IMG/VR virus record: IMGVR_UViG_3300030202_002298
Coordinates: 49,668 to 70,722 of that record
Direction: 5' to 3' (one strand)
Length of the DNA stretch: 21,055 nucleotides
Source of the DNA: a virus
A model generated the notes under the pieces. The model made no database searches. It was not told where the DNA came from and saw nothing but the letters and a program-made list of their open reading frames with translations. Below, piece by piece: positions 750-6,641 of the stretch (positions are counted from its first letter, which is position 1; each line of letters begins with the position of its first letter). The position numbers and the translations under genes were made by a program.

Positions 750-1769
750 ATGACAGAAGGTCAACAAGAAGAACAACGGATGGGGTTTGCAAAAGTAACG
801 CAGAATCAAGGATGCTCAGAAATAAATGCAATTGAACGCAGTGATGTTATAGAATCAAATGCTGAGTTACGACATAGTAGAGCTGAATGCACCCACTCAC
901 ATCGAGAGATGCGCTGGATGAAACGCTGGATTGCCGCCGTAGCCGCAGCTATTGTCGCAGTTATTGGTGCAACATGGTACACAACGAGTTATGTTACCCA
1001 TTGGTACGGGAATCGTGTGTATCCCGAAGCCCCGCCGACTGCTGCCCTTATGGATGAATTGGCTGCACACAAAAAATTAACGGCATCACTCGTGGCTGAA
1101 TTCGAGAGAATGAAAGAAGCGACAGCAACAACGAAGAGAACAGTGTTTTGGTTCGACAGAAAACGTCAACACAACGATTTAAAGTTCGCTATAGTGGATA
1201 ACAAATACCCAGCCGGATATGAAGTCTGGGAGGATGGTGAACTCATTGAGCGGTGGCATTGGAAAATTGAGGGGAACCCTAAAACGGATCAGTACGGCGA
1301 TTATATATTCAGATGCGTTTCAACGTACAATAAGGAAGGTGAATACTCAGGTTTTAAACAATATGTCATGGCAAATTATCCTGACGACGAGGGTTTTATC
1401 ATGCCAATTGACAATGCTCTGGAGTACACAGTGAATATAAAAAAGAACTGGCTCAAACTAAAGTCATACGACAAGGACATGAATGGGATGGAAATTATGT
1501 GGAAGGACGGAAAGGTACTTCATACCTATTTACATGAACGGGATTTTATGCACTCAAAACAAGAAGGAACTGATCGCGATTTGTATTCAATTATTCAGGA
1601 ACCTGATCAGTTAACATACATGGAACACCTGTCAAAAATGTTTCCGTTCATTCAAAATGATGTTCTCGAACCGTTCAAAAAATCTATACGTTATGAAAAA
1701 ATCAAGGCAGCACAATCGGCTTTAAACAAAAGCAAAGCGGCGGTTAAAAGTGTTAGGAGGAAGGGGTAA
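750..1769 (+). CDS. Single-pass membrane protein of unknown function
   Basis: 339 aa, not recognised. A hydrophilic N-terminal stretch of about 55 residues ends in a basic patch (MRWMKRW). One strong transmembrane helix follows (about 60-80, IAAVAAAIVAVIGATWY), then about 255 soluble residues. The positive-inside rule predicts the N-terminus in the cytoplasm and the large C-terminal part in the periplasm. The C-terminal part carries a helical stretch (about 98-127), then an aromatic, probably beta-rich segment (about 130-260) with YEVWEDGELIERWHW and MEIMWKDGKV, which resemble short repeats of the kind seen in MORN-like or antigen-type proteins. The end is basic (KSVRRKG). It lies between regulators and integrase, where lysogenic-conversion or superinfection-exclusion genes are often found. 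No clear ribosome site precedes 750; the ATG at 780 is an alternative. Its stop is directly followed by the integrase start. Confidence 0.75.
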   Translation: MTEGQQEEQRMGFAKVTQNQGCSEINAIERSDVIESNAELRHSRAECTHSHREMRWMKRWIAAVAAAIVAVIGATWYTTSYVTHWYGNRVYPEAPPTAALMDELAAHKKLTASLVAEFERMKEATATTKRTVFWFDRKRQHNDLKFAIVDNKYPAGYEVWEDGELIERWHWKIEGNPKTDQYGDYIFRCVSTYNKEGEYSGFKQYVMANYPDDEGFIMPIDNALEYTVNIKKNWLKLKSYDKDMNGMEIMWKDGKVLHTYLHERDFMHSKQEGTDRDLYSIIQEPDQLTYMEHLSKMFPFIQNDVLEPFKKSIRYEKIKAAQSALNKSKAAVKSVRRKG

Positions 1770-3158
1770 ATGGCTCAACCGTGGATTAAATGGGTGCGAG
1801 GTTCTAAACAAGAAAACTTGATCGCAGAACTACTTGGTATCAAATATAAAAAAGAAGGCGGCAAATATAAGGTTCGTTATTGGACAAGTACGATTCACAG
1901 AAATGCGTTTCGTAAAGACAATGCCAGAAAACACCTTCCAGTATTAGACAAGTTCATTAGAGACAGAATTAAAGAGTATGAAGATCATCAACCTGTTGAG
2001 CCAAAAGTAGCCAAACAATATGAATCCGATGAGCTTCTAACTGCTAAACAAATACTCAAGGATTGGAAGATAACAACTCCCCTATTAACATTTGTTAAAC
2101 AGCAAGCAGAACAAGAGTTTAACACGAACGGAAAAACACAAGACATCTCACCTAAAGAGGCGTACAAACAATACCGTGTATCGAAACCTCTGGCACACAA
2201 CTCAATTCCCGCTGCTCAAAAAATATTCAAGGATGTGTTCAGTCCATTTTTCGACATGGAAATGCGGAGAATTAATTTTACTGATATAGATAAACAGTTG
2301 ATTGCTCTCTGGAAATCTAATGACTGGTCTGTCGATACATTTAATAAACGAGTCACGGGTACATCAGGTTTTCTAAAATGGTGTCAGTCTTCAAAAAGGC
2401 GATACATTAGCATGAGTTGGCCTGTTAGCTCATTGGAACGTATGCCAGAGGAAGAATATGAAACATTAGCTGGCGGCATAACCAAATATTTCACACCTGA
2501 CCAAACCAATGATTTACTACATTCTGCAACAGGTCGAGATACAGACAAATATCAATTCGATTATATGCCGAATCTCGCAACCCAATTTTTTGCAGGGCCG
2601 CGACCTTTCGAGACATACCGTCTACCGTTGGAAAATTTCAATATGGAGGATAACACGGTTAAACTGGTTAAATCAAAACTAGGAGACAACAAACATCGTT
2701 TAGTTAAATTAAAACCTAACCTAAAAGCCATAATTCTCCCCTACTGGGAAGCTCAAGGAGGAAGAGGTTTAATGTTACCGCCAGAATTAAGGGTAAAACT
2801 AGAACCATTGTTCTATGGGCTGAATGCTGAACTTGCAAAAACAGGTAAAATTAGAAACAAAAAAGCGAAGAGGGAATATGACGAATGCCTAGCTTCTATC
2901 GGTGGTACGTTTAGTCAGGCATTTAAGCGAATGGCCGAGCGGCTCAAATTAGATTGGATTCGTGACGGATCTAGGCACAGCTATGGCTCCTATAGGTACA
3001 ATCAGTTATTCCATCAAGATAACTCCGATAATTTTATATCAACAAAAAACACTCTCAAAGAAGAGATGGGTACAAATGTTGAGAACCTGGAAAAACATTA
3101 TGTTGGTAGCGGTATTAAACTAGCTGAGGTTAACCAATATTTTTCTGTGGGATTGTGA
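1770..3158 (+). CDS. int: Tyrosine recombinase (phage integrase)
   Basis: 462 aa, typical integrase length, beginning right after the preceding TAA with a strong site (AGGAGGAAGGGG) upstream. The first 65 or so residues look like an arm-binding region, about 110-235 fits a core-binding SAM-like domain, and about 245-462 the catalytic domain. Arg I is in AGPRPFE (R278); box II is DGSRHSYGSY (R402, with D399 where His is usual); the nucleophile is in EKHYVG (Y444). The MGT (433-435) takes the place of the common LGH. It should integrate and excise the phage chromosome by strand exchange at att sites. The adjoining tRNA-Met gene, whose 3' end touches its stop codon, is the expected target. The substitutions match, in my memory, integrases of PVC bacteria where MGN/MGH and RHSFGSY boxes are common. 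Confidence 0.93.
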   Translation: MAQPWIKWVRGSKQENLIAELLGIKYKKEGGKYKVRYWTSTIHRNAFRKDNARKHLPVLDKFIRDRIKEYEDHQPVEPKVAKQYESDELLTAKQILKDWKITTPLLTFVKQQAEQEFNTNGKTQDISPKEAYKQYRVSKPLAHNSIPAAQKIFKDVFSPFFDMEMRRINFTDIDKQLIALWKSNDWSVDTFNKRVTGTSGFLKWCQSSKRRYISMSWPVSSLERMPEEEYETLAGGITKYFTPDQTNDLLHSATGRDTDKYQFDYMPNLATQFFAGPRPFETYRLPLENFNMEDNTVKLVKSKLGDNKHRLVKLKPNLKAIILPYWEAQGGRGLMLPPELRVKLEPLFYGLNAELAKTGKIRNKKAKREYDECLASIGGTFSQAFKRMAERLKLDWIRDGSRHSYGSYRYNQLFHQDNSDNFISTKNTLKEEMGTNVENLEKHYVGSGIKLAEVNQYFSVGL

Positions 3159-3235
3159 TGGTAGCTGCGAGTGGAATTGAACCACTGACCTGAAGCTTAT
3201 GAGTCTTCCGCTCTAACCAACTGAGCTACGCAGCC
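3159..3235 (-). tRNA. tRNA-Met (CAT), probable attP/attB core
   Basis: The reverse strand folds as a complete 77-nt cloverleaf. Acceptor GGCTGCG pairs with CGCAGCT (G1-U72 wobble), D stem GCTC/GAGC, anticodon loop CTCATAA with CAT, T stem AGTGG/CCACT with loop TTCAATT, then A and an encoded CCA. The long pattern resembles elongator tRNA-Met rather than initiator, as the first base pair is wobble-paired and the D region is TAGCTCAGTTGG. In the anticodon stem (GAAGA/GCTTC) the pair next to the loop is A-G, a mismatch. Its 3' end abuts the integrase stop codon, the classic position of an integration site. Whether it is the phage's own tRNA or a recombined host copy cannot be told. Confidence 0.92.
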
Positions 3236-3520
3236 ATCGAAGAAGGGCAATTTAAACACACTTGTCAATCGTTCTCAATCCTCCCAAATTCCAGATCTAG
3301 GGGGGATGAAAGGGGGATTTCTAAAAACTGGTCAAAATTGCCCCACCTTAAACTACTGCCTATAAGATAGTTAGATGCCTTTAGACTTCTGGCCTCATAA
3401 TCCAAAATTCTTGTAACTATAAACCACTGATAATCAGCAACATAACCCTCTCTGTTTTTTTTGTGATTATGTCATTTACTCCCATTTACTCCCATCCATA
3501 GGGGGGATTTAGGGGGGATT
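3236..3520. promoter_or_regulatory. Gene-free region between tRNA and pilin-like gene; likely attP arm region
   Basis: No plausible gene is seen. The stretch carries paired G-rich repeats at both ends, a tandem 10-bp repeat and a 9-bp inverted repeat, GGGCAATTT (3245-3253) with AAATTGCCC (3335-3343). Beside an integrase and tRNA such repeats are usually sites for integrase, excisionase or bending proteins. A TTGACA on the minus strand (3263-3268) lies just upstream of the tRNA but has no well-spaced -10. No convincing terminator was found. Confidence 0.4.
3300..3320. repeat. G-rich repeat pair, copy A
   Basis: Two copies of a GGGGGAT element, at 3300-3306/3307 (GGGGGGATGA) and 3312-3320 (GGGGGATTT), are spaced about one helical turn apart. 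The same paired arrangement recurs at 3501-3521. Confidence 0.55.
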
Positions 3521-3521
3521 T
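3473..3521. repeat. Tandem 10-bp repeat followed by G-rich repeat pair, copy B
   Basis: CATTTACTCC occurs twice head to tail (3473-3482, 3483-3492), followed by a third partial CAT start. Then GGGGGGATTT occurs at 3501-3510 and again at 3512-3521, the second touching the stop codon of the pilin-like gene. The 10-11 bp phasing suits cooperative protein binding on one DNA face, as for integrase arm sites. Confidence 0.5.
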
Positions 3522-3769
3522 TAAGGCAGGGTTGGATGACACTCCCAGCACCTATCTAAGATAGTATCTCTTTTGACTAGGAAGTCTGCTCCCCTCTCCT
3601 CTTCGTACCCTACATAATGAACAATGAGCTGCTGCTTGTAGACCTTGCACACTGCCTCATGAGCCTGATCTTTTGCTCTACTAAAACTGGATGCCGTTAA
3701 TGCCGCCAAGATCCCGATAATGGCGATAGCTATGAGTAGCTCCATTATGGTCATTCCAGCAAATCCCAT
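3521..3769 (-). CDS. Type IV pilin-like (prepilin N-terminal motif) small protein
   Basis: 82 aa. The N-terminus reads MGFAG then MTIMELLIAIAIIGILAAL: a Gly before the cleavage point, Glu at +5 and a hydrophobic helix of about 18 residues, matching the type III prepilin signal recognised by PilD-type peptidase. The following SSFSRAKDQAHEAVCKVYKQQL resembles the amphipathic helix start of pseudopilins. The remaining domain is tiny and has three Cys (one after the helix, then CWEC). The leader is very short and lacks the usual Lys/Arg, so processing is unproven. It overlaps the nuclease gene by 19 nt and ends the leftward cassette. It might enter or poison a host pilus or secretion pseudopilus, act in adsorption or exclusion, or serve as a membrane lysis helper. 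A spanin with pilin-like sequence is the main alternative. Confidence 0.7.
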   Translation of the reverse strand: MGFAGMTIMELLIAIAIIGILAALTASSFSRAKDQAHEAVCKVYKQQLIVHYVGYEEERGADFLVKRDTILDRCWECHPTLP

Positions 3770-4143
3770 GACCCTTCAAATTTGTAGAATCTATTACCTG
3801 TGCCATTATAGATTTTCGCTGTTAAACCTCTAACCTCATCAAACGGAATAATCCAGAATTTCAATACGTCGATTGCACAGCATATAAAATAATCAACATC
3901 ACCTGGATCGTAACGCTTTTTAGCGGAGAGTCCGTGAGCTAATTGAAACTGATAATGCGGCCTGTTGTCTTTGTATTTGTGTTGCTGAAGGGTTGCCTTA
4001 ACTTGGATACGAAGGAACCTTTGCCGTTTGACCACTAATAGATCAAAACGGGCGGTGTCTGAAAGGGGGTGTGCTACGCTCCAACCGTGTTCTATCAATT
4101 TCTCCGCTACCAGCAGTTCCCCCCGCTGGCCAGTGGAACGCAC
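3751..4143 (-). CDS. PD-(D/E)XK nuclease-family protein (PDDEXK_5 / intron endonuclease-like)
   Basis: 130 aa from a GTG start, 6 nt after the holin-like gene. The N-terminal half fits the small PD-(D/E)XK fold: E9 in the GQRGELLVAEKL helix, D34 in ARFDLLV, and Q47-x-K49 in LRIQVKAT, a Q-x-K variant of the (D/E)-x-K site. This is the arrangement of the I-Ssp6803I-type and archaeal Holliday-resolvase-like families. Catalysis would be metal-dependent DNA cleavage; substrate is unknown. The C-terminal half (YDPGDVDYFICCAIDVLKFWIIP) is the usual strand-rich continuation seen in this family. A role in packaging, resolution of DNA branches, host DNA damage or exclusion of other phages is possible. 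Its place between holin-like and pilin-like genes is unusual. No group I intron is visible nearby. Confidence 0.75.
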   Translation of the reverse strand: MRSTGQRGELLVAEKLIEHGWSVAHPLSDTARFDLLVVKRQRFLRIQVKATLQQHKYKDNRPHYQFQLAHGLSAKKRYDPGDVDYFICCAIDVLKFWIIPFDEVRGLTAKIYNGTGNRFYKFEGSWDLLE

Positions 4144-4149
4144 ACCGTT

Positions 4150-4314
4150 TTATTTTTCAGCTTCGGTTTTTACGCCGTGACGCACGAATATGGCTAATAG
4201 AGAGGTTATGGCTATATTAATAGCAGCACCCATTTCTAATTCACCTGTCATGTATCCCGCCAAACTACCGATTATACCGGTAACGCCACTCCAGAGGGTC
4301 TTTGATTTTAGCAT
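4150..4314 (-). CDS. Small two-helix membrane protein, holin candidate
   Basis: 54 aa, starting MLKSKTLWSGVTGIIGSLAG. Two hydrophobic segments (about 7-22 and 30-46) are separated by a short polar turn (TGELEMG), and a charged tail follows (RHGVKTEAEK). This layout is typical of phage class II holins, which form lethal holes in the inner membrane at the end of infection. AAGGA lies about 8 nt before its ATG, which is 2 nt after the TAA of the preceding membrane-protein gene. No endolysin follows; the next gene is a nuclease. The assignment rests on size, topology and neighbours. Confidence 0.7.
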   Translation of the reverse strand: MLKSKTLWSGVTGIIGSLAGYMTGELEMGAAINIAITSLLAIFVRHGVKTEAEK

Positions 4315-4316
4315 TT

Positions 4317-4478
4317 TTAGTCCTTGTTTTTGTTAAGCCTGAAACAACGCATGATGATGTAAACTAGGGTAGCCAGAGAAACTAGGCATTTAAGAACCAG
4401 ATCTATATCTGTTAGAAACCAGTTCCCCACCCCTAGAATACTAGCCACTCCTACTTTAAAATCATCAATCAGTTGCAC
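4317..4478 (-). CDS. Small membrane protein, possible holin or antiholin
   Basis: About 53 aa from a GTG at 4478, which overlaps the 71-aa gene by 14 nt. It has an amphipathic start (VQLIDDFKVGVASILGVGNW), one clear hydrophobic helix (about 25-43, DLVLKCLVSLATLVYIIM) and a basic tail ending KNKD. Small proteins of the form D-D-x-K-x-G-x-A-S-x-L-G-x-G next to holins are common in marine phages. It could be a second holin or an antiholin timing lysis together with the gene that follows. The start is uncertain: an ATG at 4544 is in frame but would add an implausible basic segment and an 80-nt overlap with the upstream gene. Confidence 0.55.
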   Translation of the reverse strand: MQLIDDFKVGVASILGVGNWFLTDIDLVLKCLVSLATLVYIIMRCFRLNKNKD

Positions 4479-4680
4479 TTTCAGGCATTTCGATAGTCGG
4501 GTTTTCCTCGCTACCTTCTGCTTCCTGTGCTGGTGGTTGAACATCTAGTCCGAAATGTTTAGCTAATATTTGAATAGCTGCATCTCTTTGACGACCAGAA
4601 GGCCCATCCACCATTGCACGATCCGCGACTTGAGCGAGTACTTGCACCGCTGTTTTTAACTGTTCTGTGTTATCTGCCAT
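4465..4680 (-). CDS. Hypothetical 71-aa protein, first gene of the terminal cassette
   Basis: The product starts MADNTEQLKTAVQVLAQVAD. The first 45 residues are probably helical (AVQVLAQVADRAM, then RDAAIQILAKHFGL), and the last 25 are acidic and proline-rich (PPAQEAEGSEENPTIEMPESATD). No signal peptide or membrane segment is seen. GGAG lies 9 nt before the ATG. It follows the palindrome-containing promoter directly and is overlapped at its 3' end by the next gene, so it is likely co-expressed with the membrane proteins. Its family is not recognised; a small regulator or lysis-timing partner is a guess. Confidence 0.7.
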   Translation of the reverse strand: MADNTEQLKTAVQVLAQVADRAMVDGPSGRQRDAAIQILAKHFGLDVQPPAQEAEGSEENPTIEMPESATD

Positions 4681-5614: not shown

Positions 5615-6241
5615 TTAGCTTGTTGCTTGTGTGTCTACTGGTTCCATTGTGGATGCCAGCATTTGTGTAAATCTTGCTAATCCCTCGGCAGGAGAATTCT
5701 GGGTACATTCCACGTCAATGCTGTAACGAGCTGAGAAGTCTGATGATCTAATGTTTTCAGAATGTGATGTAACTGTTCCTGTATGTGAATTGGAATGAGA
5801 TCCACCTGCATCAAACCCTACTCCCCAGAAGTGACCACTTACAGATGCATGAACTTCAGACTCCGAATGATCCTCTTGTTTATTGTCGTGTGACTCTGTG
5901 TTTTGGGAATGACTCTTAACCTCCATATCAAAATGTACCTTAACATCAGATATAGATAGGTTAGGTATAGTTACCATCGTTAGTAACGGCATCTTCACCA
6001 TTTGTTTTAATGGTTTGGTTTGACCTTTGATTAGCCGTTCGACTTCTACATCAACGGTACGGGTCCTGGTTTTCTTTGGATCTTCTGGATCAGGCTCAAA
6101 CCCAATCGAGGATACAAAGTCCAATGTTACTCCAGCTAATTTCTTCTGGCCTTTAGCCGCTGACACTAGAGGGTCAATTATGAGTTCCGAAAGCGGGAGG
6201 CCTTGGAAATCTTTTAGTTGTTTATCGTCTGCTCCTGGCAT
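5615..6241 (-). CDS. DUF2589-family protein
   Basis: 208 aa. The N-terminus has the helix LIIDPLVSAAKGQKKLAGVTLDF (21-42), then SSIGFEP, then the family's signature strand pair MPLLTMVTIPNLSISDVKVHF (84-104). Near the C-terminus ARYSIDVECTQNSPAEGLARF (171-191) matches the closing PxGLxR segment of this family. Between lies a His/Ser-rich insert (about 110-168) that may bind metal or be surface exposed. The DUF2589 family is of unknown function, known mainly from bacterial chromosomes, and I assign it by pattern. The adjacent 129-aa gene is a shorter paralogue. The position straight after the giant fibre suggests a virion or fibre-assembly role, but a host-interaction protein is equally possible. 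Confidence 0.75.
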   Translation of the reverse strand: MPGADDKQLKDFQGLPLSELIIDPLVSAAKGQKKLAGVTLDFVSSIGFEPDPEDPKKTRTRTVDVEVERLIKGQTKPLKQMVKMPLLTMVTIPNLSISDVKVHFDMEVKSHSQNTESHDNKQEDHSESEVHASVSGHFWGVGFDAGGSHSNSHTGTVTSHSENIRSSDFSARYSIDVECTQNSPAEGLARFTQMLASTMEPVDTQATS

Positions 6242-6251
6242 AATGATTTAT

Positions 6252-6641
6252 TTATATTGTTGGTATTAGTTTTATTAGGTTATCTCCGATACGAGCCATG
6301 CCTTCAGCTTGATCCGTACTGGAAAATTTTATCTTTACGTTAGCCATCTTGGATTTTCTTAGTTTACCCAAACAGCCAACTGCTTTGTCTCCGTCATGGT
6401 CAAGGTTCACCTGTAGATCAACCTCGCATGATTCTATTTTTAGTGTGTTATGAGGAACCAGCACGAACAATGGAGCTTCTACATCTTTATCGTTAAGCCT
6501 AATCTTCACTGTCTTAGCTGATCCGTCCTCATTAAAGTACCCTTCCCTTATATTATTTGAGAGAGACTCCTCCACTGATTTTTGAGCCTGTACCACTGCT
6601 GAGTACAAGCTATCGAATATGTTCTGTAATTCTCCTGCCAT
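6252..6641 (-). CDS. Short paralogue of the DUF2589 protein
   Basis: 129 aa. An N-terminal helix (IFDSLYSAVVQAQKSVEESL, 8-27) is followed by KTVKIRLNDKDVEAP and a strand pair PLFVLVPHNTLKIESCEVDL (57-76). That segment lines up with PLLTMVTIPNLSISDVKVHF of the following gene. QAEGMARIGDNLIKLIPTI (111-129) lines up with the PAEGLAR end of its neighbour. It lacks the His/Ser-rich insert. The two genes are 10 nt apart, so they are probably co-expressed and may form a hetero-oligomer. Function is unknown. Confidence 0.65.
   Translation of the reverse strand: MAGELQNIFDSLYSAVVQAQKSVEESLSNNIREGYFNEDGSAKTVKIRLNDKDVEAPLFVLVPHNTLKIESCEVDLQVNLDHDGDKAVGCLGKLRKSKMANVKIKFSSTDQAEGMARIGDNLIKLIPTI

Follow-up and report, generated by a model that had tools for sequence, protein, structure and literature searches.

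A mini-pilin from a marine verrucomicrobial phage that probably slips into or jams host pilus or secretion filaments

The window analysed here is the whole stretch of 21,055 nucleotides that corresponds to positions 49,668-70,722 of a virus record of 70,722 bp. The last 177 bp of the record repeat its start at 98%, which indicates a circular or terminally redundant genome with strain variation, so that the gene discussed in the following is not stray flanking host DNA. A leftward string of genes leads from structural genes through a DUF2589 pair and small proteins to two holin-like proteins, a PDDEXK_5 protein and, as its last member, a short prepilin-like gene (Table 1). Past this gene lie G-rich repeats, then a tRNA-Met and then a divergent integrase. 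The initial annotation had described the prepilin as the end of a cassette with holin-like proteins. Its position is as described, but neither of the two small proteins matches a family, and they are holins by appearance only.

Table 1. Features of the prepilin locus and attachment region, in window coordinates
Position	Strand	Feature	Basis or remark
3521..3769	(-)	prepilin-like gene, 82 codons, mature product 77 aa	very probably a headless prepilin; TIGR02532 above cut-off
3755..3769	(-)	leader MGFAG, predicted cleavage after Gly5	sequence; Gly -1 and Glu +5 kept in L002 despite different leader length and residues
3647..3649	(-)	Cys41 codon, the helix-end cysteine common to host prepilins	Cys at this position in 35/39 host prepilins
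3536..3550	(-)	CWECH codons (Cys74-His78), terminal CxxCH	kept in L002, L096 (CYRCH) and both decayed MAG copies
3751..4143	(-)	PDDEXK_5 nuclease-like protein	PF11645 (Pfam), E 3e-16; also in relatives that lack the prepilin
4150..4314	(-)	small membrane protein, holin-like by appearance	no family match; conserved in relatives
4317..4544	(-)	small membrane protein, holin-like by appearance	probably starts further inside, as its relatives do
3499..3521	.	G-rich repeat adjoining the end of the prepilin gene; probable arm site of the integrase	23-bp family with 3298-3320
3298..3320	.	second copy, probable arm-type repeat	23-bp family with 3499-3521
3159..3235	(-)	tRNA-Met (CAT), probable attachment core	ARAGORN; 87% identical tRNA-Met beside a decayed prepilin end in MAG G001
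1770..3158	(+)	divergent tyrosine-recombinase-like integrase	adjoins the tRNA; late RH..Y residues; 93.5% identical in L034

The start of the prepilin gene is overlapped by the PDDEXK_5 gene by 19 nt, an arrangement that likely couples their translation. A scan for sigma-70-type promoters gave no promoter-like match immediately ahead of the prepilin gene on the minus strand, and no terminator was found for the gene. Since it has no recognizable promoter of its own and ends a late, lysis-side string, its expression in a lysogen is only putative. The integrase matches no Pfam family and gives no convincing PHROG match, despite its position at the attachment site. In this region, the tRNA-Met is a complete gene followed by CCA-like sequence and not a mere 3' fragment. 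Between a ribbon-helix-helix-like protein and the integrase lies a protein of 339 aa that has a single N-terminal membrane segment and matches no family (window 750-1769). The DUF2589 pair (window 5615-6641) is strongly conserved in many related viral contigs, and a second tyrosine-recombinase-like open reading frame adjoins the terminase region of the same genome, outside the window (G000 24179-25009).

A near-canonical type IV pilin start, three cysteines and nearly no globular domain had been noted in the product, and all three observations hold. The open reading frame translates as MGFAG followed by MTIMELLIAIAIIGILAALTASSFSRAKDQAHEAVCKVYKQQLIVHYVGYEEERGADFLVKRDTILDRCWECHPTLP. Behind the leader MGFAG the mature chain opens with MTIMELLIAIAIIGILAALTASSF..., which places Gly at -1 and Glu at +5, and the cysteines occupy positions 41, 74 and 77. 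The NCBIfam model TIGR02532 scores the protein at 22.7 bits against a cut-off of 16.3. The suggested check with the Pfam profile N_methyl gave a divided result: the window protein stays just under the cut-off of 21.2 (19.3-20.6 bits), whereas an 86-aa relative in a second phage, L002, passes it with 30.5 bits and TIGR02532 with 32.3 bits. A strict prepilin motif scan matched only the window, copies overlapping it, L002 and a further contig (L003), and gave zero matches in 1.35 Mb of shuffled sequence. Structure models, of low confidence (pLDDT 61 and 66), consist of helices only; the C-terminal globular (beta-sheet) domain is absent from them, with about 30 residues left past the long helix. 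PF07596, the profile of the full DUF1559 outer domain, does not match the window protein. The product is thus very probably a headless prepilin. That a phage encodes a minimal prepilin beside its attachment site is borne out by the signal, the tRNA-Met and the 23-bp repeats.

Full copies of the mini-prepilin were found in three phages: the window, L002 and the more diverged L096. In L002 the order of PDDEXK gene, prepilin and attachment region is the same, and a longer leader, MAFARMRQG, precedes the same frame of Gly -1 and Glu +5. Between the mature proteins of window and L002, about 30 changes are synonymous and 10 non-synonymous (dN/dS 0.05; binomial P 2e-12); for the last 47 residues the numbers are 12 and 2, respectively. 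Such a ratio over the mature protein marks a constrained gene, whose signal and tail are held by selection on the protein. A functionless passenger, acquired from the host by imprecise excision, is therefore hardly credible. The abundance of host prepilins and the position of the gene at the attachment edge speak for a passenger, but in addition to the low dN/dS the amino acids of the tail are identical in three lineages despite synonymous divergence, and no host protein with a CxxCH-type tail was found. Past the prepilin, both the tRNA-like 3' end and the tandem repeats of L002 differ from those of the window (judged by eye), so the gene stays in position even where the attachment module is another one.

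A near-twin of the window, L034, shares the integrase region (93.5% identity over 1,742 bp), the same tRNA-Met and its flanks. It matches the window on both sides of the prepilin and lacks positions 3523-3765, which is the prepilin open reading frame almost to the base. The gene is thus optional cargo. This presence or absence as a unit between near-identical phages, which is also what is expected of a moron, goes beyond the initial annotation, as does the probable marine verrucomicrobial host described below; the promoter and terminator of its own that a moron would have were not found, the promoter scan covering the sigma-70 type. Optional cargo at the attachment side would also suit a beneficial lysogenic conversion, in which the mini-pilin, instead of blocking a phage receptor, would benefit the lysogen through altered adhesion, DNA uptake or secretion of the host. 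Remnants at prophage edges in the host genome and the great number of prepilins in the host order point in the same direction. Nevertheless, we judge this reading unlikely, given that no independent promoter or terminator was detected in the sigma-70 scan and that the outer domain which would carry an adhesive surface is missing.

The same near-twin informs us on a possible role in lysis or late infection, as a spanin substitute or as a late receptor blocker that protects progeny. The prepilin ends a gene string containing holin-like proteins, and related contigs such as L046 and L036 carry a spanin-like pair after the holin-like gene that is missing at the corresponding place in the window and L002. 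L034, however, lacks both the pair and the prepilin, which disfavours a spanin replacement. Moreover, no open reading frame with a lipobox overlaps the prepilin, the protein matches no spanin or holin family, and the L096 copy follows a primase-like gene. Taken together these points render a lysis function quite improbable. The initial annotation had held that conservation of the helix only as a generic spanin or holin segment would speak against a prepilin. Such a generic helix does not explain the data, since the alignment with host prepilins extends well past the helix, and the protein also has a constrained CxxCH tail of its own. Spanin-like overlapping gene pairs after a holin-like gene were seen at L046:3578-3881, L036:2509-2833 and L043:2653-2971.

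To look for a host, genomes were scanned with the C-terminal half of the prepilin. One real match was obtained, in the Pedosphaeraceae MAG G001 (titled Limisphaerales bacterium), a member of the Verrucomicrobiota; two matches in Streptomyces span 9 residues only and were discarded as chance. The first remnant in the MAG (L047:5933-6064) retains the last 21 codons, with 21/21 amino acids identical to the window and 7 synonymous DNA differences. It lies about 80 bp from the 3' end of a tmRNA gene, with 55 bp of a different phage gene directly beside it. The second (L052:16592-16837) is more decayed and lies on the same contig; about 115 bp separate it from a tRNA-Met sharing 87% identity with that of the phage. 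Both keep the CxxCH, one with Trp changed to Arg, and both are read as probable scars of decayed prophages. Decayed 3' ends beside tmRNA and tRNA-Met genes point to the host. This is probably a marine bacterium of the Verrucomicrobia type that itself encodes dozens of prepilins of the same family, an assignment that rests on one MAG. In both scars the prepilin end converges on the 3' end of the RNA gene, unlike the orientation of attP in the window, which implies that the donor phages were arranged differently or that the regions were inverted afterwards. A capsid search of 293 genomes of the host order, run with no positive control, yielded no intact related prophage. The second scar adjoins the start of an open reading frame that looks TIR-domain-like by eye.

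A comparison with host pilins had been proposed for the protein. G001 encodes 52 prepilins, mostly of about 240-330 aa among those read, and gives seven matches to T2SSE-type ATPases. BLAST gives significant alignments of the phage proteins to most of these prepilins, with about 31-57% identity over up to 79 residues. Similarly, a profile of the three phage proteins matches 293/293 genomes tested in the order; most of these matches cover profile positions 5-60 and lie in frames of 240-350 aa, and the number of prepilin copies per genome is usually in the tens. The start of one host protein matches N_methyl and DUF1559 in Pfam. The phage protein shares with these verrucomicrobial DUF1559/PulG-type prepilins (PF07596 with N_methyl or TIGR02532) the signal, the hydrophobic helix, the AK..A motif and, past the helix, the helix-end Cys, Gln, Tyr and acidic positions. 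In contrast, the host proteins are about 240-350 aa long, carry the outer domain and lack a CxxCH, while the phage protein has 82 aa and a CxxCH tail. Judged by its sequence, the window protein is the helix and neck of the host DUF1559-type family with the head missing. A prepilin peptidase was not found in G001, a MAG that may be incomplete, and is present in 2/4 of its relatives. Four short host frames (70-106 aa) were considered as standalone short prepilins and rejected; three stop where their contig stops and the remaining one begins at a contig start, so that all four are probably truncated genes, which provide no evidence for such proteins.

The part of the phage protein without counterpart in the host is its tail. 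Here, the diverged copy in L096 is useful, an 87-aa protein with 42-45% overall identity that sits after the primase-like gene in a replication region, outside any lysis cassette. It keeps AKxQAxEAVCK, the three cysteines and the CxxCH, and differs from the window and L002 in much of the tail outside the motif. Its residue -1 is Ala, not Gly; Ala at this position may be processed less well by prepilin peptidases. When the tail is shuffled with its composition kept, a CxxCH arises by chance in 0.2-0.7% of cases. Further candidates for copies were set aside: two viral contigs with matches to the DNA pattern of the tail (L053, L054) have unrelated frames and are chance, and three others (L097-L099) are longer pilin-like proteins or a chance frame.

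CxxCH is the attachment motif of heme c. An anchored redox or heme protein, in which the prepilin signal only places a periplasmic heme c, thiol-disulfide or metal site in the membrane, therefore deserves attention, and we consider it possible, if somewhat unlikely. Several observations favour it. L002, L096 and both decayed MAG copies retain the motif, and it is missing from 39 host prepilins, in whose 10,586 residues a single CxxC occurs. Three copies share the same last 21 residues in spite of differing DNA, and proteins for cytochrome c assembly are present in the host order. On the other hand, a simple disulfide of the kind found in many pilins would also account for the three cysteines, the helix-end one among them, and for the tail a disulfide is as simple an explanation as heme. 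No distal heme ligand was found, the models of cytochrome families do not match the tail, and L096 differs in much of the tail outside the motif. In the context of pilus assembly a precedent for a cytochrome exists in Myxococcus, where a noncanonical cytochrome c is reported to be needed for T4aP formation (PMC8833165). That protein is host-encoded and acts on PilY1, unlike the one described here (PMC8833165). A bolder combination, in which mini-pilins bring a redox or heme centre that replaces the head, so that the phage rewires the filament and does not only block it, and in which they form a distinct class in temperate phages of Verrucomicrobiota, is speculative and has little probability in our view.

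Known filament systems give an idea of what a headless prepilin could do. The chain of Geobacter PilA-N (Geopilin domain 1), a solved pilin structure that is among the best PDB sequence matches to the phage protein, has about 61-69 aa and, like the latter, is nearly only the pilin helix. PilA-N differs in being a host-encoded major pilin, and its partner PilA-C supplies the missing part of the pilin. PilA-N is evidence that a pilin with almost no head can serve as a filament subunit. The competence pilin ComGC (NF040999) is similarly small, and residues 5-71 of the 82 of the phage protein align with 3-73 of its 84; with 19.8 bits against a cut-off of 75 the phage protein is not a member of that family. 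Phages are also known to interfere with pili. The small proteins Tip, Aqs1 and Zip, from phages of Pseudomonas, shut down type IV pili and confer superinfection exclusion (PMC11656802, PMC11436027). In contrast to the protein studied here, they are not pilin-like and target the PilB motor or PilZ (PMC11656802, PMC11436027). Within the passages, titles and abstracts covered by a search of open-licence literature, a pilin-shaped phage inhibitor of type IV pili is not described (PMC11656802, PMC11436027).

In our preferred reading, to which we assign a probability of roughly 45%, the headless pilin would enter or cap host filaments and shorten, block or alter them, leaving fewer receptors for rival phages. 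The phage gene would have been taken from the large DUF1559-type prepilin family of the host, whose outer domain its product lacks. Host prepilin peptidase would cleave after Gly5, and the mature helix would join the pool of pilins in the inner membrane. From there it may co-assemble with, or cap, filaments of the type IV pilus-like or type II secretion-like kind, which would be shortened, blocked or altered because the headless subunit lacks the outer domain. The short Cys/His tail may stabilize the headless subunit by folding back onto Cys41 or by binding a cofactor or a partner. The most likely benefit would be that rival phages find fewer receptors on a lysogen or an infected cell.

If this is true, a headless copy of a host pilin would act at the level of the subunit to disable pili and related secretion filaments or to change them. 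Those phage inhibitors of type IV pili that are described in the literature consulted target the motor or its regulators (PMC11656802, PMC11436027). As the hosts have many prepilins per genome, mostly with no known role, a phage antagonist or mimic would offer a handle on that system, and the conserved CxxCH tail provides a specific and easily tested prediction.

Small phage prepilins of other families were also seen. A search of 50,697 phage records gave distant terminase matches only, and no homologue of the prepilin, the integrase, the capsid protein or the L003 protein. PHROG 3433, annotated as 'pilin' in the moron category, and PHROGs 13280, 11263 and 10597 match the N-terminus of the prepilin (E about 1e-5 to 3e-3); in these the N-terminal segment alone aligns, the Cys tail is left uncovered, and most are without assigned function. 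PHROGs 13280, 11263 and 10597 are short phage families and hint that small phage prepilins recur. The L003 protein is encoded after clamp-loader-like genes in an unrelated 142-kb phage (L003:5986-6168); this prepilin-like protein has 60 aa, scores 45.7 bits with N_methyl and contains no cysteine.
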